A stretch of DNA of 64,000 nucleotides from Nocardioides yefusunii (lineage in GTDB: Bacteria; Actinomycetota; Actinomycetes; Propionibacteriales; Nocardioidaceae), in contig NZ_CP034929.1 of NCBI RefSeq assembly GCF_004014875.1, positions 930,001 to 994,000 on the forward strand. Direction: 5' to 3'. Made by a program: the position numbers and the translations under genes. This document shows positions 1-15,210 of this stretch, piece by piece. Each line of letters opens with the position of its first letter. Within the stretch, counting starts at the first letter, position 1. The notes below the pieces were generated by a model that saw only the letters and a list, made by a program, of their open reading frames with translations, was not told the DNA's origin and made no database searches.

Positions 1-2927
1 ACCGGGACGGTGCCACCGGTGCTGAGCTTCTTGCTCACGGCCAGAGACGGAGCAGCCTTCACGTCCAGGACGAACTGGGTGTCGATCGTCTGCTCGGCGC
101 CGTCCCGGGCCGAGCAGGAGACGATCGTCTCGCCGGTCGGGAACACGCCGGTCGCGTCGGGGGAGCACCCCGTCACCACCGAAACGGTGGAGTCGGCACG
201 CGGGAGCTGGAACGGCACGCTGATGCCGCCTTCGCTGCCGGTGGCGCGGGCGTCGAGGACCGTCACCTTCGACGGCACCTCGACCCAGCGCGGGGCGGCC
301 GGGGTGGTGGAGCGGTTCACCGAGAAGGTGCCGAAGTCGGTGACGTTGCCGGCGAGGAAGGTGTTGCCCGCGGCGTCGTTGACGACGACGGTGGAGAGCG
401 CGGCGTCGTCGGCCTTCTTGCCCGCACCCACCGAGGTGGCGAGGGTGAACGACGCGGTGGCCGGGCTGGCCAGACCGGAGTCGGCGTCGGTCGAGGTGCA
501 GGCGACGACGACCTCGGCAGCGAAACCGGCCTCGCGTGCGGCATCGCTCGGCATCTCGCAGGAGACGGCGGGAACGACACGGTCGATCTTCGCCGGAGCG
601 GGTGCCGGGACCGGGGTGCAGTTGCCGGCTGCGTCACACACGTCGGCGTGGGTGGAGAAGGCGACCTTGTCGCTGCTCTTGCCGTCCTCGAGTGAGGCGG
701 TGAGGGTGAAGTCAGCCGTCTTCGCCTCGACCAACTCGGACCCGGCACCGGGGTCGGAGACGCACTCCACGACGACGTCGGTGTTGGTCCAGGTCTGGGG
801 CGTCTGCCCACAGGTCACGTCGGGGGCGCGGTCGTCGAGACCGAACCCGCTGACGTTCGGCGCCTGGGCACAGTTGCCGACGGTGTCGCACAGCTTCGGC
901 ATCTTCACGTCGAGGTCGAACGACTCGGTGCCGGCCGGGACAGAGGTGGCCACGGTGACCTTCTGCTCGGACTTGCCGTCGAGACCGGAACCGGCGTCGA
1001 CGACGGTGCAGGACACGTCGTGGCGAGCACCCTTGAGCCACGAACCGGCGGCGGGGACGTCGCAGGAGACGGTCGGGGCGCTGCGGTCCACCTTGAAGCC
1101 GGTGAAGGGACCGGCGGTGGTGCAGTTGCCGGTGAGGTCGCAGACTGCCACGGAGTTGGTGGAGGCGTCGGCGTCCACCGAACCCTCACCGACCAGCGTG
1201 GTGAGCTGGAACTCGCTCGCCGAACCCTCGGCGATGCCCGAACCGGTGTCGGTGGCGGTGCACTCGACGATGGCGTTCGCTGCGACCCAGCCCCGGGTGC
1301 GGGGCTGCTCGCAGGTGACCTCGGGGGCGGTCAGGTCGAGTTTGGCGGTCGCGGGCTTGCCCGCCTCGGTGGCGTCCGCGGTGGGGACGACGATCGCGGC
1401 ACAGTTGTCGACCGCGTCGCAGACCTGACCCAGCGGCGCGTTCTTGGTGCTCTTGCCACGCGGCTCGAACGGCACGCTGTCGCTCTGCTTGCCCGCGGTC
1501 ATGGCCCGCGTGCTGAGGGTGAACGAGGCGTCCTCGGCCGAGGCGAGACCACTGCCCGGGTTCTCGTCGGTGCCGTCGGCGGCAGTGCACTCCACCTGGA
1601 CCGACGTCGTGTTCTGCCACGTGGTGGGCACCGGGGCGCAGGCGACGACCGGGGGAACGGTGTCGATCATGATCCCGCCGACCGGGCCGGCGGTGGTGCA
1701 GTTGCCGTCCTGGTCGCAGACCGAACGCTGCGCGCTGGTGGCGTTGGTGGTGACGATGCCGTCGATGGTCTCGACCGCGAGGGTGAACTCGGCGCGGGTC
1801 CCGTCCTCGGAGAGGGTGAGGCCCTTGGCCTTCTCGACACCGGAACCGGTGTCGGTGGCGGTGCACGTCACCGATGCCTTGCGGGCCCAGCCCTTCGGCT
1901 GGTCACAGGTGACGACGGGGGCGGTGAGGTCGCGCTCCTTGAATCCGGTGCGGGTGGCGGTGAGGGTGAACGACTGCTGGGAACCGGAGACGCGCAGCAG
2001 GACGCTCGAACCGGCCGGGCCGGACAGGGTCGTGGACGCACCGGGGGCGCCGACCCGTTCCAGACGCGGGAACGGCGCGGTGGTGGCGTCGGGGTCGACG
2101 TCGGGCTGCTTCTCGGCCATCGCGTAGCCGGTGAGCTTCACTCCGCCGGTGCCGGTCACGGCCAGTTCGGCGCCCTTGTTGGGAACGGTCCACGCGTACC
2201 AGACCGAGCTGCTGCCGTGACCGGTGTCCTCGCCGTCCTCCAGCGTGGCACCCGCCAAGGAGCCCTCGCCGAGAGCGGCGTCGGCGGAGTCACCGGTGCG
2301 GGTGACGACCTGGTCCAGGGAGACGGCCGAGGCCACGTGGTCGTTGGCCGGGCCGCCCGGGGAGGTCTGCCAGATCGTGTAGACGAAGGCGCTCGAGGCG
2401 CCGTCCTTCGCGGCTGCGGCCACGCTGAAGACGTAGACGACGTCCTTCTGGGCGGTGAAGGAAGCGGCCGCGGCCGAGCCGGCCCCGCCGGTCGACGTCG
2501 TGACGTCGACAGCGACAAGGTCGGACTCCTTGGCGTCGGCCAGGAGCACGCCTGCGGGCAGGGCGCGCACCTGGACCGACGTGGCCGCCTGGCCGGTGCT
2601 CTGACCGGGGACCAGAAGGGTCTGACCGGCCTGCGGGGCAGGCCAGGTGAACCAACCGGTGCTCCCCGAGGGGAGGGTGCCGGAGAAGCTCTGGTCGCCG
2701 CGCGGGCGCTGCGTGGTCTCGCCCGGGGCGGGCGTCGCGACAGCGGTGATCAACGGGGTGGAGCACACCAACGTGGTGTTGGTGGTGCAGCCCGTGACCG
2801 GGTCAGGGTCGGACGCCTGCATCTGCGCGACGACCGCGGTGCTCAGGCCCCCGACGAGCAGCGCGCCGGCCGCGAGCGCGACCAGGCCGCGCCGGGCCCC
2901 GCGAGCGGGGGAGAGAGGGAGTTTCAC
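1..2927 (-). CDS. Secreted Ig-like repeat protein with PPC-like N-terminal region (partial, 3' end outside window)
   Basis: The gene runs off the left edge with no stop; 975 codons are visible. A GTG start at 2927 follows an AAAGG ribosome site. Residues 1-35 form a signal peptide (basic n-region, then VALAAGALLVGG). Residues about 60-290 look like bacterial pre-peptidase C-terminal (PPC) beta-sandwiches, with WFTWPAP and SVWYAWTVP segments. From about residue 330, about six units of 85-107 residues begin near 332, 425, 532, 615, 699 and 785. Each opens with a D-x-x-x-P-x-V-x-C strand, then C-T-A-T-D-x-G-S-G and ends with VCD-x-x-GNC. The regular Cys pairs suggest disulfide-stabilised extracellular Ig-like domains. 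It is the last visible gene of a three-gene exported-protein operon, 52 bp after the 3006-residue protein. Binding or adhesion is a guess; no enzyme motif was seen. Confidence 0.8.
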   Translation of the reverse strand, partial: MKLPLSPARGARRGLVALAAGALLVGGLSTAVVAQMQASDPDPVTGCTTNTTLVCSTPLITAVATPAPGETTQRPRGDQSFSGTLPSGSTGWFTWPAPQAGQTLLVPGQSTGQAATSVQVRALPAGVLLADAKESDLVAVDVTTSTGGAGSAAAASFTAQKDVVYVFSVAAAAKDGASSAFVYTIWQTSPGGPANDHVASAVSLDQVVTRTGDSADAALGEGSLAGATLEDGEDTGHGSSSVWYAWTVPNKGAELAVTGTGGVKLTGYAMAEKQPDVDPDATTAPFPRLERVGAPGASTTLSGPAGSSVLLRVSGSQQSFTLTATRTGFKERDLTAPVVTCDQPKGWARKASVTCTATDTGSGVEKAKGLTLSEDGTRAEFTLAVETIDGIVTTNATSAQRSVCDQDGNCTTAGPVGGIMIDTVPPVVACAPVPTTWQNTTSVQVECTAADGTDENPGSGLASAEDASFTLSTRAMTAGKQSDSVPFEPRGKSTKNAPLGQVCDAVDNCAAIVVPTADATEAGKPATAKLDLTAPEVTCEQPRTRGWVAANAIVECTATDTGSGIAEGSASEFQLTTLVGEGSVDADASTNSVAVCDLTGNCTTAGPFTGFKVDRSAPTVSCDVPAAGSWLKGARHDVSCTVVDAGSGLDGKSEQKVTVATSVPAGTESFDLDVKMPKLCDTVGNCAQAPNVSGFGLDDRAPDVTCGQTPQTWTNTDVVVECVSDPGAGSELVEAKTADFTLTASLEDGKSSDKVAFSTHADVCDAAGNCTPVPAPAPAKIDRVVPAVSCEMPSDAAREAGFAAEVVVACTSTDADSGLASPATASFTLATSVGAGKKADDAALSTVVVNDAAGNTFLAGNVTDFGTFSVNRSTTPAAPRWVEVPSKVTVLDARATGSEGGISVPFQLPRADSTVSVVTGCSPDATGVFPTGETIVSCSARDGAEQTIDTQFVLDVKAAPSLAVSKKLSTGGTVP

Positions 2928-2979
2928 CGAAAGACCTTTCAGAGGTGAACGGGAGGAACGAGAACGGGAACGGTCCATG

Positions 2980-5900
2980 TCAGGCCCAGCTCAGGGATGC
3001 CGGCGGGGTGTAGCAGATGCCCTCGCCGAACGCGGTCGCGCAGAACCTGGTCGGGTTGTACGAGATCGAGGCACCCATGTGGATGGAGCCGCAGCCGGCA
3101 ACGCAGACCTTGAGGTAGGCGTTGGCGACGCCGGCCACAGCGATACCGCTGCCGACGTTCCAGTTCTGGCCACCCGCGGAGAAGGAGCGCGGCTGGCTGG
3201 AGATCGAGAGCATCACGGTGCCGTTGAGCGCCCCCTCGGCGCCGCCGCAGATCCTGCCCCATGCCCAGCATTCGATGCCGCCGATGGAACGGTGGGGGAG
3301 CGACGCCGTGCCGTACACGTGGAACCCGGAGGCGTCGGTGATCTGGACACCCAGGTTGATCGTGCCGTTGAACGCCGAGGCGTTCGCCTTGAAGCCTGCG
3401 GCCTGGTTGGGCACGCCTGTCGTGCAGACCGAGGCCGCGACGTCAGCCAGGTTCGGTGCACCCGCACCGACGGGAACGTTGAGCGAGCCCCTGCCGGACA
3501 GGCAGGTCGCGCCGGTCGTCGTGAACGTTCCCGAGACACGGGCGTTGACGAACTGGCCGATGTTGGCGTTGACGTCGGCGCTGGCCACGATCACGCCGGC
3601 ACCCTGGGTGCTCCGGTTGGTGACGAGCACCGCTGCGTCGACACCGGTACCGAGCAGGGTCATCCGGCCGCGGCCCTGGACGGTGAACGAGAAACCGTTC
3701 GACCATGCGAGGTCAGCGTTCACGTCGGCCTGGACGATCCCGGCGTCGAGCGTGCCGGCAGCGGTGAAGCCGGACGGCTTCAGGCTGAAGCTGGCGCTCG
3801 CGACGCGGTAGCCGTTGACCCATCCGTTGCCGCTCCGGGTACCGCCCAGGATCAGGTCGGACTTGCCCGCCATCGCCCAGTCGTAGGTGTTGCCGGTCTT
3901 GGCGAAGTTGCCGTCGAGCTTCAGGTCGGCGTGGATCGGGGACGAGGCGGACTGCAGCAGACCCACCGCCAGCGTTCCCTTGGCCCACACGTCGCTGGCT
4001 GCGCCGATGCGACCCACGTCCACCTGGAGGTCGCCCTCCACGAAGCCGGCGAGCTTCACCGCGGCCGCACCCTGGAGACGGAAGTCTCCGTTCTGCACCG
4101 GGTGCGAACGTCCGGTGACCGGCGAAGTGATGGTCGCGCCACCGAACGTGTTGGTGGGGGAGAAGTACAGACGCGAGTTGTGGATCGTCGCCGTTGCCTG
4201 GTCGGTCAGCTGGACCTGCGCGGTGTTGATCGCGACGCCAGTGGCGTCGACACTGCCGTCGAGCTCGACGGAGAGCCCCGTCACGGCCACCTTGGCGCTG
4301 ATCGCGATCATGACGGGAGTCGTGGTTCCGGGGTGGACACCGACCTGCAGGCAGGGACCGGTGGCCGGGAACGTGATCTTGTCAGGGCCGCTGGTGAGGC
4401 TCACCGGCAGCGACTTCAGGGCGGTCGGCGAACAGCCGTTGCCGGTGACCTCCAGGCCTCCGAGCGAGAACGGGTCGGAGGCGGCGACGGCGTCCAGGGA
4501 CTGCAGCGAACCGCTGGAGTAGACGACCGATCCGCCGAGGACGAAACGCTTGTCCAGGACCTTGATCTGGCCCGAACCGTCGAGGGAGAAACCGTTGCGC
4601 GCGGCGTCGGTTCCCTTGGCGAGCTTGACCGAGGCGTTGAGCGCGAGGTTCTCGATCGTGGCGACGGTGCCGAGCGGGATGTTGCGACCCGCTGCGGAGA
4701 ACGCCAGGTTGAACGAACCCGACGCGAGGGCTTCGACGTCGACCTTCGCCGTGACGCGGGTGGCGGAGGTCGAGGCGTTGCTGCCCGGGGTGGCGTTGAT
4801 CGTGAAGCCACCGGTGAAGGTGAACTTCAGTTCCTTCGGGGCGACACTCAGGTGGACCGTCGTCTCGTCCAGGGCCACCGGTCCGACGCTGAAGGCGCCG
4901 ACGTTGGCGTCCGCCTCGAAGGACGGGGTGGCCATGTCGAGGGCGGCGTTGAAGTGCACGCCCACACCCAGCACCTGGGTGTCGAAGGAGACCGTGAAGC
5001 CGGCCGGGAAGACGACCTCACCGATCTTCCCGCCGAACGGCGCGATCGTCAGCTGGGCTGCATCGATCTGCAGCGCATCAGGAAGACCCGGGACGGGCTT
5101 CATGAACGTGCGGCCGTCCTGCTCACCCAGCGTCAGCGAGACGATGGGGGAGTCGACGGAGATGTTGAGCGCGAAGGAGACCTTCTCGTCCGCCACGACG
5201 CCGAGGGCGTTCTTCCACTGCGTGGGCAGCTTCGTGGCGGTCGCCGCGATGCCGACCGACGGAGTCGGGATCGCGGAGAACACGACGCCCACCTGGATGG
5301 CGGCCCGGGAGAGGGTCAGACCCTCGATGCCCAGGGCGTTCGTCCAGTTGTCGCCGTCGACGGTCAGCGCAGCGGTGACGCTGGGGACCCCGGCGAGCCT
5401 GATCGACAGGCCGGCCGTGGCGTCGAGGCGCGCGAGGTTCTTGCCCCCCACCTCGTCGGGGCGAGGCATGAAGAGCGAGGAAGCACCCAGGATCGAGAGT
5501 GATCCGTCGGTGGCCAGACGCAGGGACGCAGTGTTGAGCTGCAGGCGCGTGCCGTCGGACTTCTCGAAGATCTTCACGCCGTTCTTGCCGGCCGAGAGGG
5601 CCAGCTCGACGGTGCGGGTGGTGCCGCTCAGCGAGACCGTCGCGACCACGTTGGTGGCGGCGGGGAAGTCCAGCTTCTTCGACAGGAACTCGCAGGCGTC
5701 CTGGCCGAGCGAGAACTGGCCGATCGCGGTGAAACCGGCCGGCACCTTCATGCCGTTCACGGTCGGGTTGCTGGTGCGGTCGGCGCAGCTGGCCGCGTCC
5801 TTGGCGACGCCGCCGAGACCGGCGTTGAGGACGGAGGAGCCCAGGTCTGCGATCGGCTTGCTGGTGTAGATCACGCGTCCGGTGCCACTGAGGGCGCCGG

Positions 5901-8900
5901 TGATGTCGCCGAGGTTGACGGTGACGCTGGCGGCGAGGTCAGTGCCCTCGGCGTCTGCGTCGACGGCCACGACCGCGGCACCGCGGACACCGACGACGGA
6001 GCCGGACGCAGCCAGCGAGATCGAGGTGGTCTTCGGCTTGGCGGTGTGCTGGGCGGCGAGTTGGACCGAGGTCAGGGTGAGGCCCTGGACCGGGGTCAGG
6101 GACGGAGCGCTGGCGGTGGTGACCGCACGCCACGACGTGCCGGGCACGACGCAGAACTCGGCGCCGATGTCGACCGCTGTGCTGCCGGTCTTGACGTTGG
6201 CGACACCGTCGACGGCGAAGTAGACGTCGTCGACGACGGTGTCCTCGTCGAGGCCACAGACGACCGGGGCAGCGGCGCGCAGGCCCATCTGGACGCCCAG
6301 ACGCTCGACGCTCATGGCGCCGACCTTCCAGCGACCCTCGTAGGCCAGAGCGAGGGACATCGAGAGGGTGGCCTCGACCTCGTCCTCCTCGCAGTCGTCC
6401 TTCGTGCCGTCCTTGGCGTCAGCGTCCTTCTTCTCGTCGTCCTCCTTGGGGGAGGGCGCGCAGTCCTTCTTCTCGTCGTCCTTCGCGTCGTCGTCCTTCG
6501 CGTCGACGTCCTTGGCGGGGGCAGCAGCCGGCGCAGCGTCCGCGTCCTCCTCCGCGTCCTCCTCGGTGGAGCTGGCGATGGTTCCGGTGACGGAGGCTCC
6601 GGTCTTCGCCTCGGCGTCGTACTTCGTGAACTTCAGGCCGGGAGCGGCCTCCCAGTCCTCGGCGAGTCCACCGGTGACGGTCGCGGACCAGTTGTGCTTG
6701 TCCTCGAAGCTGCCCTCGATGCTGATCGCGGCCTTGGACGCCACGACACCGGAGAGCTCGAAGCCGAGCTCCTTCGGGGTCCACTCCAGGGAGGCGCCGT
6801 CGATGACGACGGCGTCGGTGCCGAGCTCGACCTCACCGTCGCTCAGCTCCAGAGAGACCGAGCCGGTGGTCCTGCCGGTCGTGTGGCGCAGCAGGCCCGT
6901 GCCGCCGAACGCGGCGTCGAAGGCCTCGAAGTCCTCGGCGGAGACGTGGACGAAGAGCTCGCCGGGAACCAGGTCCCCGCTCAGGTCGTCGTCCTCATCG
7001 TTCTTCTCCTCGGAGCCTTCGTCTTCAGCGGTCTCCTCGGCGTCCTTGATCAGTCCGGGGATGTCACCGCAGCCCTCGGAGTCGGGCCAGCAGTAGGCGC
7101 CGGTGACGCCTGCCTGGCCAGAGCCCTCGACCTGGGACACCGAGGCCTGCATCAGCAGGGCGTCCTCGCGGAGAGTGAGGGTGGTGGTGACCGGGCTCAG
7201 GTCGAGACCGGTGTCGGAGAGCAGCGGGAGGTCAGCGGCGCTGAGGGTGCCGGTGACGGCGTAGTCCTCGAAGGAGATCTTGACCTCGGCCAGGGTCACC
7301 GAGCCGAGGTTCCAGGCCGACGGGAGTGCGACCGTGCCCTCGTCGAGGGTGATGCCCTCGGTGCTGAGGGAGCCCTTGAGGCCGGTGAGGCCGATGCCTC
7401 GGTAGGTCATGCCCGCATCGGTGAAACCGATCACGAGCTCGTCGTTGCAGACGACCTTGTCGGGGAGACCGGACAGCAGTGCGCCGGCCTCGCCGAAGTC
7501 GACCACGGCGTCGCCGTAGGTGACGACCACGTGGTTGGTGACGTCGACGCCGGTCTCGACGAAGGAACGAGCCATCGTCAGGACCATGCCCAGCGGGCCG
7601 TCGGTGGCGCAGGCGGGGGAGTCGGGTTCGGGTTCGACGTACTCGCCGACGGTGAACTCGACGACCTGGCCGCTGGTCTGTCCGATGGCGTCGGTGACGT
7701 CGAGCTGGAAGGCGGCCACGCCGACGGGCAGCTCGGCGGTGGTGGCGCGGACGAGGGAAACGTTGCCCTCGCCCTCGTCGTCGGTGACGGCCTCGATCTC
7801 GGTGTCGCCGATGATGGTGGACCACTCGGTCTCGTAGGGGGCCACGCCACCGGAGATCTCCACCGCGAAGGTGGCGGCGTCGCCCTCGACGAACTCGTCG
7901 TCCTGACCCGAAGCTCCCTCGAGGGAGAAATCGCCGATGGCGATCGGGTCCGGGGCCCCGACGGTCACCGTGGTGGTGTCGGTCGCGGTGGCGGAGGCAG
8001 AGCCCGAACCACGACGGGCGTGGGTGCGCACGGTGATCTCGTCACCGGGCCGCGCGGTGGCAGGCACCGTGAGAACGGCGGTGCGGCCGTCCTCGTCGGG
8101 CGTGAGCGTGCCCCGGGCACTGGAGGACTGGGTGCGGGAGACCTGGCTCCAGGTCAGCTGCGTGCTGGCACCTTCGAAGGTGTCATTGACCAGGTCCACG
8201 GTCAGGTCGACCGAGGCACCGGGGGAGACGGTCTCGACGGGGCCCGCGACCGAGATGCCCAGGGTGCTGGCGTCCGGGCCGATCGCGAAGTCCGCGCGGG
8301 TGCCCGACGACGTGCCGGAGGTGTCGACGGTGCCGTCGCTGGCCTGCACGGAGAGGGCGAGACGCTGGACGTCGCGGGGCCACACGAAGCGGTAGGTCGC
8401 CCGTCCGGTCATGCCGGTCTTGGCGTTGGAGAGCTCGGAGAACGGGAGGTTCGCGAGCTCGGCGGGAACCGCGACCTTCGGGGTGACGGTGACGAGGTCG
8501 CTGTCGGCGTCGTTGTAGCGCACCGCGAGGGTGAGTTCGGTGCCGGCCTCAGGAGTCTTGAGCGCGTTCAGTTCGCGCGCTCCCTCGGCGTCGAGCAGCG
8601 TGATCTGGTTGATCACCGGAGCGCTGGGAGCAGCCGGGTTCACGACCACGTTCACGGTGTCGGTGCCGGTGGCCGGCCCCTGGGAGTCCTTCGCCAGGAG
8701 TGAGAAGGTCAGGGCGGTGGGGGAGGAGACGCCGGGCGCCAGGAACGAAGGACGTTCACCGGTGGCGCTCTTCGGCTTCTCGTCGGTCGCCTTCCCGTCG
8801 GTGTCGAGCCAGGTGACGGCCGGGCCGGCGACCTGGGTCCAGGTGTAGGTGAAGGGGCGTCCGATCGAGACCGATGCGGAGGCGTCGAGGTTCACCTGGG

Positions 8901-11900
8901 TCGGGTTCGGGAGACCGTCCTCGTCGGGGGTGGAGGCCTCGACCTCTTGGTCCTCACCGGCGGCGGGAGCGATCAGCACGGACTCGGCGCTCAGGACGCT
9001 GGAGCTCTGGAGCGCGGAGGCGCCTCGGGCACGCAGCACGTCCCAGGCGGCGATGAACCGCTCGGCGGGGGTGTCGCCGGCCACGTCGAGCAGGCCGATC
9101 GGGAACTGGAGCGCACCGGCGACGTTGTCTCCGACGGTGATGCCCACGCTTGCGTCGCCCTGGCTGCCCGAGGGGATCACCTGGTCGAAGTCGCACAGGA
9201 CGACGCCCTCGTGGCCGCCGGGGAAGGTGTCGCCGTAGGACTCGCAGACCGGCTGCGGCGCGTCGTCGGCGAACCCGGTCATGGTGATCGCGGGCTTGTC
9301 GGCGTCGTCGTCGAGGGTGACCTGGCTCGGGACGAGGAACGCGAGCACGCCCGCGTCGACGTCACCGAAGGTCGGGTGTCCCTTGAGTGAGAACGTGGCC
9401 TCGGTGTGGAAACCGGGCGTCAGCGGAGCGGACTCGAGCGTCCCCTGCGTCGAGAGCGGGGGGATGGCCTGACCGGCAGGAGTGCTGAGATCGGTGGTGA
9501 TCGGCGTGCTGTGCGTGGCCGACTGGCCGGTGGCGACGGAGATCGTGTGCAGCGAACCGGCGAAGGCCGAGGCCGGCATCACCGGGGCGGTGGAAACGGG
9601 GCTGACCACGAGGGTCGGACCGGTGACGGTGCCACCGGCCTTGACCTCGACGTCGTCGTCGGTGCAGGTGACGGTGGTCGCGTCACGGTCGCAGGACCAC
9701 CCGCCCGTCTCGACCAGACGGACCTCGGAGGCCATCGGGACGGTCTCGACGAAGGTGAGGGCTCCGGAGAAGGCGACCTGGCCGCTGTTGGTGGCGCCCA
9801 GGGTCAGGACGGCGCTCTCGGAGAGGGCTGCGGTCCGGCCCTCCTCGGGAAGGGTGACGTTCGTGGTGGACGCCATGTCCACCAGGGCGCCCTCGGGGGT
9901 CCACTCGGCGACGTCCTGCTTCTCGGCGTTCGGCAGGAGGAGCGCGGGGGAGAGGACGGGGAGCTTGACCGAGGCACGGGCGGGGGCGGCCACCGGACCG
10001 AAGGCGTCGGTGGACTCCACCTGGACGGCCAGGTCGTAGGGGGCGGTGCCCTCGGCGACGGGGACGGCAGCCAGCGGGAGGAGCAGGTCGGGAGTGGCGG
10101 ATCCAGCCAGGACTGCTGCGTCGGTGACGCACGTGACGCTCTGCTCGGCATCGCTGAGCGCGGCGGAACAGGTCCACCCCGGCGTCGGGTCCTTGACGTC
10201 CTCCTGGGCGTTCCATGCGACAGCACCGGGGCCGGCGACCACGGCGCCTGCGGACTTCTCGTGCGGGAACGCCAGCGGGACGGTCACGGTGACCGGTCCG
10301 GTGGTCTCGGCCTTGCCGTCGTTGGCAACACGGACGGTGACCGGCTCCCAGGCGGTCTTGCCGCCCTCGTCCAGGGCCGGGAGTTGCCCGGGGACGCCGA
10401 CCTCCGCGCTCAGGTGGGCGCGGTGGGGCTCCAGGACCTCGAACCCGATCGGCACCTGGCTCGACAGCGGCATCGGGGTGGTGACACCGTCGACGTCACG
10501 GGTGGTGGTGGCGGAGTAGTTGACGTCGAACGTCGTGAGCGCGGCGTCCTTCGGGACGTCCACGTGGAGGCTGAGCAGCGGGTAGGCACGGCCGGCGTTG
10601 AGCTTGGCCGGGTTCGAGCAGTTCACCAGCGTGTACTGATCGGGGATGACGGCGGTGGTACAGGTCCATCCGCGGTCCGTCGAGCCGTCGGAGGGCAGGA
10701 GGTCCTCGGAGACCGGGAGGGTCTGGAAGGAGTTCGCGGGCAGGGCAACGGTGACGTCGACGGTGCCGAAGCGCTCCTTGCCGGAGTTCACCACGCGGGC
10801 GTCGATCGGGACCGTCAGGCCGGGGCGGGGCGTGGCACGGGTGGAGACGCTGACCTCGACCTTGCCGTCCTCGACGATCTCTGCGTTGACCGGCGCGGAC
10901 TCGGCGCTCTGTTCGGTCGCGGTGCGGGTGCGCACCGTGTAGTAGTACGAGGCGAGCGGGTCGAAGAGGATCGGCTCGGCCACGCTGCCCAGGACGATCT
11001 TCGCGGAGTCGGTGACCTCGTACCGCTTCGGTGCCTTGTCAGGTGCCAGGACGAGTGGCTGGCCGGAACCGGAGACGACCGAACCATCCACCGAGACCAC
11101 AGCGAGCTCGACACCGGTCGCGGCGACGGGGAGGCCGTCGTCGTCGACGTCGGTGTAGCGGGTGACGAGGTAGTCGCGGATCACCGAGGAGTCGGTGGGC
11201 TCGTTCACGGGAGCTTCGAAACTGATCGTGATGCCGGAGTCGCCGGCCGCGGCCTTCACGGCGCGCGGAGCCTCGACGACCGGTGCGGTGGATCCGTCAC
11301 AGTCGTAGGTCGGCTGGGTGCCGTCGAGCACCAGCACCGAAGAACCGGACGTGTCGCTCTCGAGGTGGGTGTACTCGTCCTCCAGGTCGGTCTCGGTCCA
11401 GGGGCAGGCCTCCTGGAGGACCAGGCCGGAGAAGCTGCCCTTGTTGATGAGGTGGGTGTAGGTGGTGAGCGCCGACTTGGTCAGCGTCAGGGTGCCCTCG
11501 CCCTCCACGCTGCGGATGACGGTGCGACCGGTCACGGCGTCCGAGGGCGCGAGCAGCTGGGTCGAGACACGGACCTGGGCCGGGGTTTCTCCCTCGTCCT
11601 CGCCGTTGCCGGTGAGCTCGACCTCCTCGACGACGATGCTGCCGCCCGAAAGAGTGACGTCGCCGACGGTGACCAGGCGGTCGATCTGTGGCGGCGCGGC
11701 GGCGTCGACGCGGACCCGTGCGGTGGGCCCGGAGAGTCGGCTGGCGTCGATGCGCACCGCGTCCTGGGACGCGGAGCCGGCACCGGGCGCGATGGTGGGA
11801 ACCACGATCTCGGCGTCGGGGGACGAGAGGTCCCCGACGTTCCAGTTCTTCGGGTTCGACCACGTGTTGTCGCCGGACTGGTTGGTCCAGGCGTACCACT

Positions 11901-12000
11901 GGACGACGTCGTCGGCCTGGGCCGGTGCGGCCGAGATGGTCAGCGCACTCGAGACCAGGGCCACCAATGCTGTGGCGAGGGTCGTGGAACGGCGCATCAT
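2980..12000 (-). CDS. Giant secreted multidomain protein, 3006 aa (Fn3, CARDB/DUF11-like, PKD-like, acidic tract, beta-rich C-terminal half)
   Basis: The ATG at 12000 overlaps the upstream stop as ATGA and follows AAGGAG at good spacing, so translational coupling is likely. Residues 1-29 are a signal peptide cut after AQA. Around 240-330 is a fibronectin III-like domain. Around 380-900 are beta-sandwich repeats of CARDB/DUF11 type (ARVVNSGKERFG, VRVANDGKAE). Around 1040-1560 are PKD or Ig-like units (YTWTQVAGP). Two acidic low-complexity stretches lie near 1650-1670 and 1810-1870 (KDDDAKDDEKKD). Residues about 1870-3006 are a long run of short alternating beta strands rich in Gly, Ser, Thr, Ala and Val, ending in a Cys-containing tail. 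There is no LPXTG and no C-terminal membrane segment, so it is probably released or held non-covalently. I do not recognise the C-terminal half. The function is unknown; a surface fibre, adhesin or scaffold is inference. Confidence 0.88.
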   Translation of the reverse strand: MMRRSTTLATALVALVSSALTISAAPAQADDVVQWYAWTNQSGDNTWSNPKNWNVGDLSSPDAEIVVPTIAPGAGSASQDAVRIDASRLSGPTARVRVDAAAPPQIDRLVTVGDVTLSGGSIVVEEVELTGNGEDEGETPAQVRVSTQLLAPSDAVTGRTVIRSVEGEGTLTLTKSALTTYTHLINKGSFSGLVLQEACPWTETDLEDEYTHLESDTSGSSVLVLDGTQPTYDCDGSTAPVVEAPRAVKAAAGDSGITISFEAPVNEPTDSSVIRDYLVTRYTDVDDDGLPVAATGVELAVVSVDGSVVSGSGQPLVLAPDKAPKRYEVTDSAKIVLGSVAEPILFDPLASYYYTVRTRTATEQSAESAPVNAEIVEDGKVEVSVSTRATPRPGLTVPIDARVVNSGKERFGTVDVTVALPANSFQTLPVSEDLLPSDGSTDRGWTCTTAVIPDQYTLVNCSNPAKLNAGRAYPLLSLHVDVPKDAALTTFDVNYSATTTRDVDGVTTPMPLSSQVPIGFEVLEPHRAHLSAEVGVPGQLPALDEGGKTAWEPVTVRVANDGKAETTGPVTVTVPLAFPHEKSAGAVVAGPGAVAWNAQEDVKDPTPGWTCSAALSDAEQSVTCVTDAAVLAGSATPDLLLPLAAVPVAEGTAPYDLAVQVESTDAFGPVAAPARASVKLPVLSPALLLPNAEKQDVAEWTPEGALVDMASTTNVTLPEEGRTAALSESAVLTLGATNSGQVAFSGALTFVETVPMASEVRLVETGGWSCDRDATTVTCTDDDVEVKAGGTVTGPTLVVSPVSTAPVMPASAFAGSLHTISVATGQSATHSTPITTDLSTPAGQAIPPLSTQGTLESAPLTPGFHTEATFSLKGHPTFGDVDAGVLAFLVPSQVTLDDDADKPAITMTGFADDAPQPVCESYGDTFPGGHEGVVLCDFDQVIPSGSQGDASVGITVGDNVAGALQFPIGLLDVAGDTPAERFIAAWDVLRARGASALQSSSVLSAESVLIAPAAGEDQEVEASTPDEDGLPNPTQVNLDASASVSIGRPFTYTWTQVAGPAVTWLDTDGKATDEKPKSATGERPSFLAPGVSSPTALTFSLLAKDSQGPATGTDTVNVVVNPAAPSAPVINQITLLDAEGARELNALKTPEAGTELTLAVRYNDADSDLVTVTPKVAVPAELANLPFSELSNAKTGMTGRATYRFVWPRDVQRLALSVQASDGTVDTSGTSSGTRADFAIGPDASTLGISVAGPVETVSPGASVDLTVDLVNDTFEGASTQLTWSQVSRTQSSSARGTLTPDEDGRTAVLTVPATARPGDEITVRTHARRGSGSASATATDTTTVTVGAPDPIAIGDFSLEGASGQDDEFVEGDAATFAVEISGGVAPYETEWSTIIGDTEIEAVTDDEGEGNVSLVRATTAELPVGVAAFQLDVTDAIGQTSGQVVEFTVGEYVEPEPDSPACATDGPLGMVLTMARSFVETGVDVTNHVVVTYGDAVVDFGEAGALLSGLPDKVVCNDELVIGFTDAGMTYRGIGLTGLKGSLSTEGITLDEGTVALPSAWNLGSVTLAEVKISFEDYAVTGTLSAADLPLLSDTGLDLSPVTTTLTLREDALLMQASVSQVEGSGQAGVTGAYCWPDSEGCGDIPGLIKDAEETAEDEGSEEKNDEDDDLSGDLVPGELFVHVSAEDFEAFDAAFGGTGLLRHTTGRTTGSVSLELSDGEVELGTDAVVIDGASLEWTPKELGFELSGVVASKAAISIEGSFEDKHNWSATVTGGLAEDWEAAPGLKFTKYDAEAKTGASVTGTIASSTEEDAEEDADAAPAAAPAKDVDAKDDDAKDDEKKDCAPSPKEDDEKKDADAKDGTKDDCEEDEVEATLSMSLALAYEGRWKVGAMSVERLGVQMGLRAAAPVVCGLDEDTVVDDVYFAVDGVANVKTGSTAVDIGAEFCVVPGTSWRAVTTASAPSLTPVQGLTLTSVQLAAQHTAKPKTTSISLAASGSVVGVRGAAVVAVDADAEGTDLAASVTVNLGDITGALSGTGRVIYTSKPIADLGSSVLNAGLGGVAKDAASCADRTSNPTVNGMKVPAGFTAIGQFSLGQDACEFLSKKLDFPAATNVVATVSLSGTTRTVELALSAGKNGVKIFEKSDGTRLQLNTASLRLATDGSLSILGASSLFMPRPDEVGGKNLARLDATAGLSIRLAGVPSVTAALTVDGDNWTNALGIEGLTLSRAAIQVGVVFSAIPTPSVGIAATATKLPTQWKNALGVVADEKVSFALNISVDSPIVSLTLGEQDGRTFMKPVPGLPDALQIDAAQLTIAPFGGKIGEVVFPAGFTVSFDTQVLGVGVHFNAALDMATPSFEADANVGAFSVGPVALDETTVHLSVAPKELKFTFTGGFTINATPGSNASTSATRVTAKVDVEALASGSFNLAFSAAGRNIPLGTVATIENLALNASVKLAKGTDAARNGFSLDGSGQIKVLDKRFVLGGSVVYSSGSLQSLDAVAASDPFSLGGLEVTGNGCSPTALKSLPVSLTSGPDKITFPATGPCLQVGVHPGTTTPVMIAISAKVAVTGLSVELDGSVDATGVAINTAQVQLTDQATATIHNSRLYFSPTNTFGGATITSPVTGRSHPVQNGDFRLQGAAAVKLAGFVEGDLQVDVGRIGAASDVWAKGTLAVGLLQSASSPIHADLKLDGNFAKTGNTYDWAMAGKSDLILGGTRSGNGWVNGYRVASASFSLKPSGFTAAGTLDAGIVQADVNADLAWSNGFSFTVQGRGRMTLLGTGVDAAVLVTNRSTQGAGVIVASADVNANIGQFVNARVSGTFTTTGATCLSGRGSLNVPVGAGAPNLADVAASVCTTGVPNQAAGFKANASAFNGTINLGVQITDASGFHVYGTASLPHRSIGGIECWAWGRICGGAEGALNGTVMLSISSQPRSFSAGGQNWNVGSGIAVAGVANAYLKVCVAGCGSIHMGASISYNPTRFCATAFGEGICYTPPASLSWA

Positions 12001-13259
12001 GCGCGCTCTCCTTGGGGACGACGGGAACGCAGCCACCAGACGGCGCCTGCGCAGGGAAGAAGAAGGAGGGTCAGCCACCAGGGGCTGAGGCCGCCGTCGT
12101 GCTGGTCGTCGGACATGGCAGAACCGCCTCCGAAGGAGACGGTCGTGGTGTCGACGGCGCTGGACGGGACAGCCGGGATCTCGAGCGTCGGGGTGCGGTC
12201 GTCCACGTCGCCGTGGCCGAGCTTGCCCCAGGCACCGTCGCCCCAGCAGAGGAGCGCGGAGGAGGTGGTCACGGCACAGGCCGACGTCGAGGTGACGCTG
12301 AGGGAGACCGCCTGCACCCCGGTGTCGGAGGCGTCCTCGCCCGAGGCCCAGCACCAGACGTCGCCCGCGCCGATCACGGCGCAGGACTGCTCGTCCGCGA
12401 CGGAGACGGCGGCGGCCGCGTGGGGGAGGGGCTGGGAGACGGCGTCGGAGCCGCGGGTCCAGCACTCGACCTCGCCGCCGTCGAGGACGGCGCACGCGGA
12501 GGAGTCACTGACGGACACGCTCGCGGCGGTGTCGCCGAGGGTGACCCGCTGCGGGGCACGCCCCGGCAGCCAGCACTCGACGGTTCCGTTCTCGAGCACG
12601 GCGCAGGACTGCTGCGCCGAGGCGTCGAGCGTGGTGGCCGGGCCGGAGAGAGCCACCGGCCGGGGCCCGGAGGTGCGTCCCCAGCACTCGACGTCGCCGC
12701 CGGCGAGGACGGCACAGGTGGCGTCTCCTCCTGCGGCGAGTGCGGTCGCCCGGCCACTGAGTGCGACCCCCGGTGCCTGGGTGACGGAGTGCGCGGAGGA
12801 GTCCCCGACGTGGTGTGTGCCGCGTCGTCCGAGGCGGGAGTCGTTGCCCTTGCCCCAGCAGTGGACGCCACCCTTCGACGTCAGGGCGCAGGAGTGGAGG
12901 TCGCCGACGGCGACGGCGGTGACCTTGCCGGGCAGGGCCACGGGCGCGGTCGCGTCGAGCGCGGGGCCGATGCCGTCGCCGATGCTCTGGTCGGAGTCCT
13001 GGCCGAGTTGGCCGACGTGGCCGCGACCCCAGCAGGTCACCTCGTCGGGGGAGAGGACGCCGCACGTGTGCTCGGGTCCGGTGGCGACCAGTCCGGGGAA
13101 GACCTGGGCGTCAGCGTCCTGGTCGCTCGCAGGTGCGGCGTGGGCCGGGGACGCGCCCAGGACCAGGGCGAGCAGCACGACCAGGAGGGGGAGTACGTGT
13201 CGGGGGGCGGTGTCGCCCGAAGGCATGACCGACTGCGGAACGGGGAGGAGGGAGAACAA
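11997..13259 (-). CDS. RCC1-repeat beta-propeller protein, secreted and membrane-anchored
   Basis: 420 residues. A TTG start at 13259 has AAGGGA seven bases upstream; an ATG at 13226 (residue 12) is an alternative without a clear ribosome site. A signal peptide spans about 20-41 and is cut after AHA. Then come seven RCC1-type units, each with C-A-V-L-x(4-5)-V-x-C-W (first pair C66/C76, CWGRG), enough for one closed seven-bladed propeller. The cysteine pair in each blade suits an oxidised extracellular location. The C-terminus has a Trp/Leu-rich membrane segment (WWLTLLLLPCAGAVWWL) followed by an Arg-rich tail, so the propeller should face outward. It is first in an operon with two larger secreted proteins; its stop overlaps the next start. 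It has no sortase motif. The partner is unknown. Confidence 0.85.
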   Translation of the reverse strand: MFSLLPVPQSVMPSGDTAPRHVLPLLVVLLALVLGASPAHAAPASDQDADAQVFPGLVATGPEHTCGVLSPDEVTCWGRGHVGQLGQDSDQSIGDGIGPALDATAPVALPGKVTAVAVGDLHSCALTSKGGVHCWGKGNDSRLGRRGTHHVGDSSAHSVTQAPGVALSGRATALAAGGDATCAVLAGGDVECWGRTSGPRPVALSGPATTLDASAQQSCAVLENGTVECWLPGRAPQRVTLGDTAASVSVSDSSACAVLDGGEVECWTRGSDAVSQPLPHAAAAVSVADEQSCAVIGAGDVWCWASGEDASDTGVQAVSLSVTSTSACAVTTSSALLCWGDGAWGKLGHGDVDDRTPTLEIPAVPSSAVDTTTVSFGGGSAMSDDQHDGGLSPWWLTLLLLPCAGAVWWLRSRRPQGERA

Positions 13260-13749
13260 AGCGGTGTCCCTTGTCGTGGGTCACGCTTGGCGCTCCCCGG
13301 GGGGCTCGTGGTGCTCGTGTGCGGCATCAGTTGGCGGAATGCGGCACAGCCACGACTGCCGGCGAAGTCTATAACTTGAGGACTAAATTATCCATTCAGT
13401 CCGATTTATTACAGGAGTCATCGGAGGCGCTTTCTTCTGTCCCATTCTTGACCGTTCTCGGCGGTTTCCGGCCATTCGCATCGACACCGTCAGTGGCGTC
13501 GGCGGGTGGGTGACGCGCTGTGTCTGGGGCCGGGCGGAACGAGTTTCGCGGGTCGAGTTGAAGGACTTGACTGCACCGGAGACAATTCTCGATACGGGAA
13601 CCGACGTGTCCCGAGACGTTGTCACGCCGAGACGTCCCCCCAGTCCAGAGAAGAGAGATGGATCAACATCAAAGACCCGGGTACAGGCCCGGGCCAAGCG
13701 CAGCCCCTGACGAGTCGAGTGCGGTCCGCCCGCTGACGGAGGCACGCGC
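13260..13749. other. Intergenic region between divergent operons, with AT-rich island
   Basis: 490 bases without a convincing gene. Positions about 13365-13420 are clearly AT-rich against the GC-rich surroundings and lie 100-160 bases before the RCC1 gene, the likely promoter area of the minus-strand operon. I could not fix a good -35/-10 pair there. The right half holds a plus-strand promoter candidate and the leader of the CNNM operon, including CCCGGG-N6-CCCGGG at about 13677-13694, which can pair with itself. Confidence 0.5.
13567..13596 (+). promoter_or_regulatory. Promoter candidate for the CNNM operon
   Basis: TTGACT (13567-13572) and GATACG (13591-13596) are separated by 18 bases. 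A transcript starting near 13603 would have a leader of about 147 nt before the ATG at 13750. No riboswitch consensus that I know (M-box, yybP-ykoY) was recognised in this leader. Confidence 0.4.
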
Positions 13750-15210
13750 ATGATGTCGCTGCTGTCCCTCGTCGCAGGCCTCGTGGTGATCGTCGTGATC
13801 ACCGCAGCCACCGCGTACTTCGTGGCGCAGGAGTTCGCCTACATGGCGGTCGACCGCTCCACGCTGGGTGCCGCTGCGAGCGAGGGCGACTCGGTCGCCG
13901 AACGCACGCTGGCGGTCACCCGTCGCACTTCTTTCATGCTGTCCGGTGCCCAACTGGGCATCACCGTGACCGGCCTCCTGGTCGGTTACGTCGCAGAACC
14001 GCTCGTCGGTCAGGCACTCGGTGACCTCCTCGGAGGCGTCGGCGTGCCGAAGGCCGTCGGCATCGCGGTGGGAACGGTGTTCGCACTCGTCCTCTCCACC
14101 GTGGTGCAGATGATCCTCGGCGAGCTGTTCCCCAAGAACCTCGCGATCGCCCGGCCCGAGCCCGTGGCCCGGTGGCTGTCGCGCTCCACGCTGGTCTACC
14201 TCAAGGTGATGGGTCCGGTGATCTGGTTCTTCGACCAGGCCTCCAACCTGCTCCTCAAGGCGATCAGGATCGAGCCGGTCCACGACGTCGAGCACGCGGC
14301 CAACGCCGCGGACCTCGAGCACATCGTGGCCCACTCCCGCGACACCGGCGACCTGCCCCCGGGCCTGTCGCTGCTGCTCGACCGCATCCTCGACTTCCCC
14401 GAGGAGAGCGTCGAGCACGCCATGGTGCCGCGTGTGCGGGTCGACACCGTCGACCCCGAGACCACCCTCGCCGAGCTCCGCGTCGAGATGTCGGGCGGGC
14501 ACTCGCGCTACCCGATCCTCGACGACGAGGACCACATCGTCGGGATCGTCGACCTCGTCGACGTCCTCGCGGCGCGCGACGAGACGCTGACCGCAGCCGA
14601 CCTGGCACACCCAGCACTGCTCGTCCCCACGCTGATGCGTCTGCCCGAGGCGGTGGGCGAGTTCGCCCGCGCCAAGCAGCAGATGGCCTGCGTGATCGAT
14701 GAGTACGGCGGCTTCGACGGCGTCATCACCATCGAGGACCTCGCCGAGGAGCTCATCGGTGAGATCACCGACGAGCACGACGACGACACCGTCCAGCCCT
14801 ACGTCAAGGCGTCCGAGGACGGCTGGCTCATCTCCGGCGTCACCCCGGTCGACGAGGTGGAGCGAGCCATCGACCGCGACCTGCCCGAGGGCGACTACGA
14901 GACGGTGGCCGGTCTGGTCATCGACCTCCACGGTCGTTTCCCCGACATCGGCACCGTTGTCCGTGTCGACCTGGGCGAGGACCTCGGTCTGATGCCCGGT
15001 GAGCCGGACTGGCGCGAGGCCGAGATCGAGGTCATCGAGCTGGACCGTCACATCCCCGGCATGGTCAGGCTCCGTCTGGTCTCCGCCGAGGAGTCCGCTG
15101 CCCACGTCGAGCCCGAAGGCCCCGACGAGGAGCCCGAGGCGCACATGACCGGCGGCTCCGACGCATGGCACGCCGAGCACGCGCGCGCCGAGAAGGAAGG
15201 GGACGCCTGA
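13750..15210 (+). CDS. HlyC/CorC (CNNM) family transporter, three-domain form
   Basis: 486 residues. The start is ATGATG at 13750, with GGAGG about 8 bases upstream. Residues 1-195 are the DUF21/CNNM membrane domain (first segment at 4-26; GELFPKNLAIARPE near 123). A CBS pair spans about 205-335 (MVPRVRVDTVDP, RYPILDDEDHIVGIVDL) and ends in the family signature VIDEYGGFDGVITIEDL. A CorC_HlyC domain covers about 350-440. The acidic, His-containing tail is variable. The family is linked to magnesium or divalent cation export and homeostasis; the substrate here is not determined. The stop overlaps the start of a second, shorter CNNM protein by one base, so the two probably form a heteromer, as is usual for these paired actinobacterial genes. 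Confidence 0.92.
   Translation: MMSLLSLVAGLVVIVVITAATAYFVAQEFAYMAVDRSTLGAAASEGDSVAERTLAVTRRTSFMLSGAQLGITVTGLLVGYVAEPLVGQALGDLLGGVGVPKAVGIAVGTVFALVLSTVVQMILGELFPKNLAIARPEPVARWLSRSTLVYLKVMGPVIWFFDQASNLLLKAIRIEPVHDVEHAANAADLEHIVAHSRDTGDLPPGLSLLLDRILDFPEESVEHAMVPRVRVDTVDPETTLAELRVEMSGGHSRYPILDDEDHIVGIVDLVDVLAARDETLTAADLAHPALLVPTLMRLPEAVGEFARAKQQMACVIDEYGGFDGVITIEDLAEELIGEITDEHDDDTVQPYVKASEDGWLISGVTPVDEVERAIDRDLPEGDYETVAGLVIDLHGRFPDIGTVVRVDLGEDLGLMPGEPDWREAEIEVIELDRHIPGMVRLRLVSAEESAAHVEPEGPDEEPEAHMTGGSDAWHAEHARAEKEGDA

Follow-up and report, generated by a model that had tools for sequence, protein, structure and literature searches.

Do three large, apparently exported proteins encoded side by side in Nocardioides yefusunii make up one surface structure, or do they only share a transcript? 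The host genome is a single contig of 3.32 Mb, and the window analysed here is a stretch of 64,000 nucleotides from it (C1:930001-994000). At the left end of the window, three open reading frames (ORFs) with predicted exported products lie on the minus strand in the order of an RCC1-repeat protein, a giant protein and a third protein with Cys-pair immunoglobulin (Ig)-like repeats. A first-pass annotation had described three large exported ORFs encoded together, including a giant of 3006 residues whose ATG overlaps the stop codon of the RCC1 gene as ATGA, and these points were confirmed. With a probability of about one half, we propose that the products of this operon form a single surface apparatus anchored in the envelope.

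Pairing of the giant with the third gene

A scan for relatives of the third gene in named genomes gave 15 loci. In the two best of these, L004 (a metagenome-assembled genome, MAG, of the Acidimicrobiales) and L005 (a MAG of the Solirubrobacterales, class Thermoleophilia), a giant ORF of >3100 aa is located directly upstream, and another pair, L087 in genome G908, was reached from the giant side. The giant stop and the third-gene start overlap as ATGA in all three. Counting our own locus, a giant of the same family stands directly upstream in 4/4 loci with a near-complete third gene, that is, one covering at least 805 of the 1133 profile columns (the L005 gene stops at column 808); the next-highest coverage among all loci is 468 columns. 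The four paired loci are also the four strongest matches to the giant core, three of them being rows of the core profile (A3) itself. These observations support a conserved adjoining pair of giant and third gene wherever the third gene is near-complete. The linked co-occurrence suggested earlier is supported for these two genes and, as described below, was not seen for the RCC1 gene.

Two start codons are candidates for our third gene. GTG at 2927 reproduces the 52-bp gap previously reported and has AAAGG just upstream, and ATG at 2978 leaves a gap of only 1 bp. By analogy the ATG is favoured, because the equivalent starts in the three other loci overlap the giant stop. From this ATG the gene (L003:14193-17978) encodes 1261 aa and, instead of lying within positions 1 to 13,259 as annotated, ends 807 bp beyond the window.

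The third protein begins with two beta domains, which are followed by Cys-pair Ig-like repeats, a linker rich in Pro and Thr (P/T) and a basic C-terminal domain, with no C-terminal transmembrane segment. AlphaFold2 (AF2) predicted that residues 52-1130 fold into a chain of beta domains, at a mean local confidence (pLDDT) of 75.7 and a predicted template-modelling score (pTM) of 0.35. A protein search with residues 1-1000 returned 36 proteins, 15 of which were aligned with the query (alignment A1, 16 members); these have in common the N-terminal region and the Cys-pair Ig-like repeats. Hydropathy revealed a C-terminal transmembrane segment in 13/16 members, and also in the L004 and L087 proteins. 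The members lacking it are our own P0001, P0005 and the shortened P0022 of L005, whose gene (8900-11626) ends after the Ig repeats with neither P/T linker nor transmembrane segment; in P0001 and P0005 a basic domain of ~110 residues forms the C-terminus. LPxTG-like ends are present in 6/16 members (P0024-P0029), and none was seen by eye in the three proteins of our operon, in agreement with the sortase signal having been called absent. The third-gene profile matched in 91/396 phylum genomes, partially in all except our own. Genome G616, outside the seven phylum genomes with a giant core, has Ig-repeat matches (E 5e-54).

Comparison of the site within the genus disclosed that in genome G156 both flanks are adjacent, ~700 bp apart, and all three genes of the block are missing together. 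The left-flank gene, acyl-CoA-dehydrogenase-like by eye, is 92% identical. The right-flank gene, which we take to be of the CBS/CorC type, has a G156 orthologue split over two frames (L141 1945-3496; 77% and 62% identical), followed in the place of the block (L141 ~3497-4211) by an ORF of ~155 codons that is, by eye, presumably of the pyridoxamine-oxidase type. Eight same-genus genomes carry an orthologue of the CBS gene, and in the stretches of 10.8-20 kb compared, the block was found in 0/8 and 7/8 have no match to our left-flank genes; only G156 keeps both flanks.

Gene 1 starts with TTG and its N-terminus is signal-peptide-like. Rfam gave no match in the window and, for the promoter region, none even at E 1, and a consensus search of positions 13200-13800 found no sigma-70-like promoter. 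In GC content, the block is not distinct from the remaining window. Coordinates are collected in Table 1.

Table 1. Window coordinates of the three-gene block, its parts and its right flank.
Feature	Coordinates	Strand	Remarks
Gene 1, predicted exported RCC1-repeat protein, 420 aa	11997..13259	-	C-terminal transmembrane-like segment and RSRR tail
Transmembrane-like segment WWLTLLLLPCAGAVWWL at the C-terminus of gene 1, residues 394-410	12030..12080	-	
Gene 2, giant predicted exported protein, 3006 aa	2980..12000	-	Start overlaps gene 1 stop
Giant, fn3/CARDB-like repeat region, residues ~260-1000	9001..11223	-	Bounds approximate, by eye
Giant, PKD-like domain, residues 1034-1120	8641..8901	-	E 0.011, below cut-off
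Giant, low-complexity acidic/lysine linker ahead of rod	6380..6570	-	Bounds approximate
Giant, amphipathic beta-meander rod, residues 1880-3006	2983..6363	-	From alignment and model
Giant, best-conserved rod core, residues 2095-2430	4711-5718	-	
Gene 3, 5' part in window	1..2978	-	Continues to window coordinate -807
Flanking gene, presumed CBS/CorC type	13750..15210	+	Right edge of three-gene block

The giant family and its rod

The 9-kb giant ORF is not a chance frame, because a full-length collinear relative exists: P0041 has 3015 aa and can be aligned over the whole length of the giant. It was found, at 39% identity, together with P0042, P0043 and P0044 by a search with giant residues 2090-2440. 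A word search with the whole length returned the giant itself only, a single-protein scan of the genome contigs returned nothing, and a single-sequence search recovered 1/20 relatives, our own. In each of the six aligned giant relatives, conservation is highest at residues ~2200-2300. Profile A3 has seven rows including our giant, whose own match is by construction; in whole genomes it matched 1/341 of the family (own only), 7/396 of the phylum (six besides our own), 20/397 in the order of G460 and 4/32 in the family of G908, these genome sets overlapping. The matches in the six further phylum genomes and in the order of G460 include relatives that are not rows of A3. Neither the giant core nor the third protein had a match on plasmids, and the core had none in viral contigs. 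Judged from these sequences, the giant family is real, wide and sporadic. Pfam has no model for the most conserved part of these predicted exported proteins, which are thinly spread in the phylum (our genome, Acidimicrobiales and Solirubrobacterales).

The modules ahead of the rod are clearer in relatives. CARDB was reached in our giant only at E 0.34, fn3 is above the cut-off in P0041, and the PKD-like domain is above it in P0041, P0043 and P0045. For the last ~1,100 residues there was no Pfam or PDB sequence match. In the AF2 model this rod is an all-beta meander whose strands are ~11 residues long and which is hydrophobic on one face. We counted 49 strands; stacked at 0.48 nm each, they would extend for roughly 23 nm. 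Model confidence is low beyond residue ~2840. An alignment of full-length proteins and slices (A4) put P0041 at 20% versus 37% and was replaced by the folded alignment A5, which leaves out P0041-P0044 and L097 (the latter aligns like L096).

Several relatives carry additional modules. The giant N-terminus in L004 (3-1000) resembles a propeller of the PD40/TolB type, with a Pfam match below the cut-off (E 0.0065), and in the relative of L029 (5916-11150) the rod core is followed by MBG, Big_3_5 and pentapeptide repeats. In L096 (12332-18862) and L097 (5286-13022), from two genomes of one genus, the giant is directly followed by another very large ORF, of 2177 and 2579 aa respectively, whose N-terminal segment is hydrophobic.

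Great length and modular repeats would also suit a secreted polymorphic toxin or enzyme system, and an NCBIfam M36 metallopeptidase model matched giant residues 1013-1476. This match scores 34.5 bits, far below the cut-off of 1500; it lies over the PKD-like region and spans no more of the model than its C-terminal part (1193-1586 of 1604). The conserved part of the giant is its C-terminal half. Pfam, NCBIfam and PHROGs gave no other enzyme or toxin family for the three proteins, the third being scanned at full length in one case and over its first 992 aa in the others, in line with the earlier statement that known enzyme motifs are lacking. A toxin or enzyme system is, in our view, highly improbable, and the lack of toxin-family matches in these databases disfavours a polymorphic toxin.

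The hydrophobic face of the rod raises a different explanation, in which the sheet is an open groove or belt binding lipids or other hydrophobic molecules at or across the cell wall. We regard this as unlikely overall; a lipid-binding groove is possible from the modelled amphipathicity and the weak fold matches only. The rod does have amphipathic strands, with an alternation score comparable to that of TamB. Its fold matches, to the apoB100 belt and outer-membrane barrels, are weak globally, and the best viral one is a phage tail-fibre model (E 5e-6, TM-score 0.13). No AsmA/TamB-type Pfam family was found for 21 rod slices at E 0.1, and hhalign of the rod with a single E. coli TamB sequence gave a probability of 1.4%. 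Groove proteins, among them TamB, YhdP and VPS13, are absent from the fold-search rows shown, which does not exclude such a fold. Unlikely as well is a version for single-membrane bacteria in which the rod would act as a bridge-like hydrophobic conduit, with a propeller-transmembrane base and a ~1,000-residue groove that crosses the wall and carries lipids or hydrophobic molecules to or from the surface. Should the sheet form an open groove, the giant would resemble a lipid-bridge protein placed on the outer side of bacteria presumed to be single-membrane; the titles and abstract openings searched on groove proteins included none of this type.

Propeller, anchor and proposed assembly

Among the 24 giant loci examined (our own, L004, L005, L029-L036, L087-L097, L132 and L133), four, namely L088, L090, L093 and L132, encode a Kelch propeller after the rod, followed by a C-terminal transmembrane segment and a basic tail. 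Because the rod is joined to an anchored propeller in these relatives, the separate, anchored RCC1 protein could be the natural equivalent of Kelch in our operon. The RCC1 repeats of gene 1 exceed the Pfam cut-offs (PF13540, RCC1_2, 72.2 bits with a cut-off of 22; PF00415, 52.1 with 21.7), and the RCC1-like domain PF25390 scores 86.6 bits, below its cut-off of 150.

In the proposed apparatus, the giant would be exported, with its variable head and fn3/PKD-like stalk pointing outward and its C-terminal amphipathic rod facing the cell, an orientation suggested by the existence of the fused rod-Kelch-transmembrane relatives. The rod end would be held at the membrane by a propeller with a C-terminal transmembrane segment, here the separate RCC1 protein and in other lineages a fused Kelch propeller in the anchoring role. 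The RCC1 gene is counted into the unit because G156 lacks the whole block and because the rod-Kelch-transmembrane fusions exist. The third protein would form a second stalk, starting with its two beta domains and continuing with Ig-like repeats; it is probably membrane-anchored in most relatives, with the basic C-terminal domain taking that position in our protein and P0005. Judged from the domain types, the apparatus probably serves in adhesion or surface attachment. The collagen-binding and ice-adhesin stalk domains among the weaker fold matches of the third protein and the wall-anchored RCC1-repeat proteins of bee Bifidobacterium, both described below, speak for the proposed apparatus. This association with a membrane-anchored propeller, RCC1 being separate and Kelch fused, provides a concrete, testable assembly model.

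Several observations weigh against this assembly. The RCC1 gene was found beside the giant in our locus only (0/23 others), with the limit that in L004, L005 and L087, the most relevant loci, the giant reaches the contig end and the upstream side is cut. RCC1 and Kelch are different propeller families, which makes the fusion argument analogical. The hydropathy of the putative anchor is under the usual threshold, with a Kyte-Doolittle 17-residue maximum of 1.58 and all 19-residue windows below 1.9. No third gene was seen at 20/24 giant loci, a count in which L088 shows no downstream sequence and L091 and L034 show <1 kb. The site comparison depends on one genome, G156. The pTM is low in both AF2 models (0.42 and 0.35), and the third protein has its top PDB matches in alpha2-macroglobulin and complement chains, with TM-scores of <=0.09. 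The earlier suggestion of a surface structure or secreted complex gains from the 4/4 pairing and the joint absence in G156 and loses from the loci without a third gene; that of an anchored propeller holding the giant has the fusions in its favour and the single RCC1 neighbour against it.

RCC1 repeats themselves also occur elsewhere in the family: the gene 1 protein (P0003) has matches in at least 83/245 family genomes. The best of these outside our own genome, among the matches listed, reaches 95.9 bits over residues 59-197, and no full-length relative was found among them. In genome G236, of the same genus, several RCC1-repeat frames of 871-1154 aa occur within ~62 kb (contig 3, 216-279 kb).

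This lack of RCC1 linkage elsewhere, among the matches listed for the 245 family genomes and at 23 giant loci, would be expected if the giant were an ordinary large secreted adhesin with a closed, dry-cored rod, and the RCC1 protein an unrelated neighbour sharing the transcript. Adhesins often contain Ig, fn3 and PKD modules, and a low-charge amphipathic sheet might equally well enclose a core of its own. The whole-block absence in G156, the rod-propeller-transmembrane fusions and the ATGA overlap of the RCC1 and giant genes argue in the other direction, and we consider an ordinary adhesin possible but rather unlikely.

Comparison with known systems

For the envelope-anchored apparatus as a three-gene set, no recognisable account was found in the titles and abstract openings searched, which included few subscription papers. 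Its parts can be compared with several known proteins. Like Ig-stalk and collagen-binding adhesins, the third protein matches the ColG tandem collagen-binding domain (5iku; TM-score by target 0.33, the highest among the 50 rows shown) and the ice-adhesin stalk 4p99 (0.15); these, like the DSCAM Ig domains (3dmk), are lower rows and not the top ones. Unlike such adhesins, our protein ends in a basic domain without an anchor and is paired with a giant.

The best fold match of the rod is the beta-belt of apoB100 (9bde, 9ea7), which functions as a belt in its lipoprotein. Both have a long run of antiparallel strands; apoB100 differs in being a eukaryotic lipoprotein, and the match has a very large root-mean-square deviation and 6-9% identity. 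The many successive amphipathic strands, hydrophobic on a single face, also recall the AsmA superfamily (TamB, YhdP), for which the consulted parts of PMC11014939 define the repeating beta-groove and give a modelled TamB length of 17.8-24.6 nm. The rod differs from this superfamily in having no sequence match to it, in its predicted export and in the Ig/PKD modules ahead of it.

The RCC1 protein resembles the RCC1-repeat proteins of bee Bifidobacterium, which, according to the consulted passages of PMC4449606, place RCC1 domains on an actinobacterial surface by means of a C-terminal LPxTG wall anchor. Those proteins have 2-4 RCC1 domains and are encoded in tandem gene clusters, with no giant partner mentioned in those passages. 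In contrast, our protein has one small RCC1 region and no LPxTG, and it is encoded in an operon with a giant.
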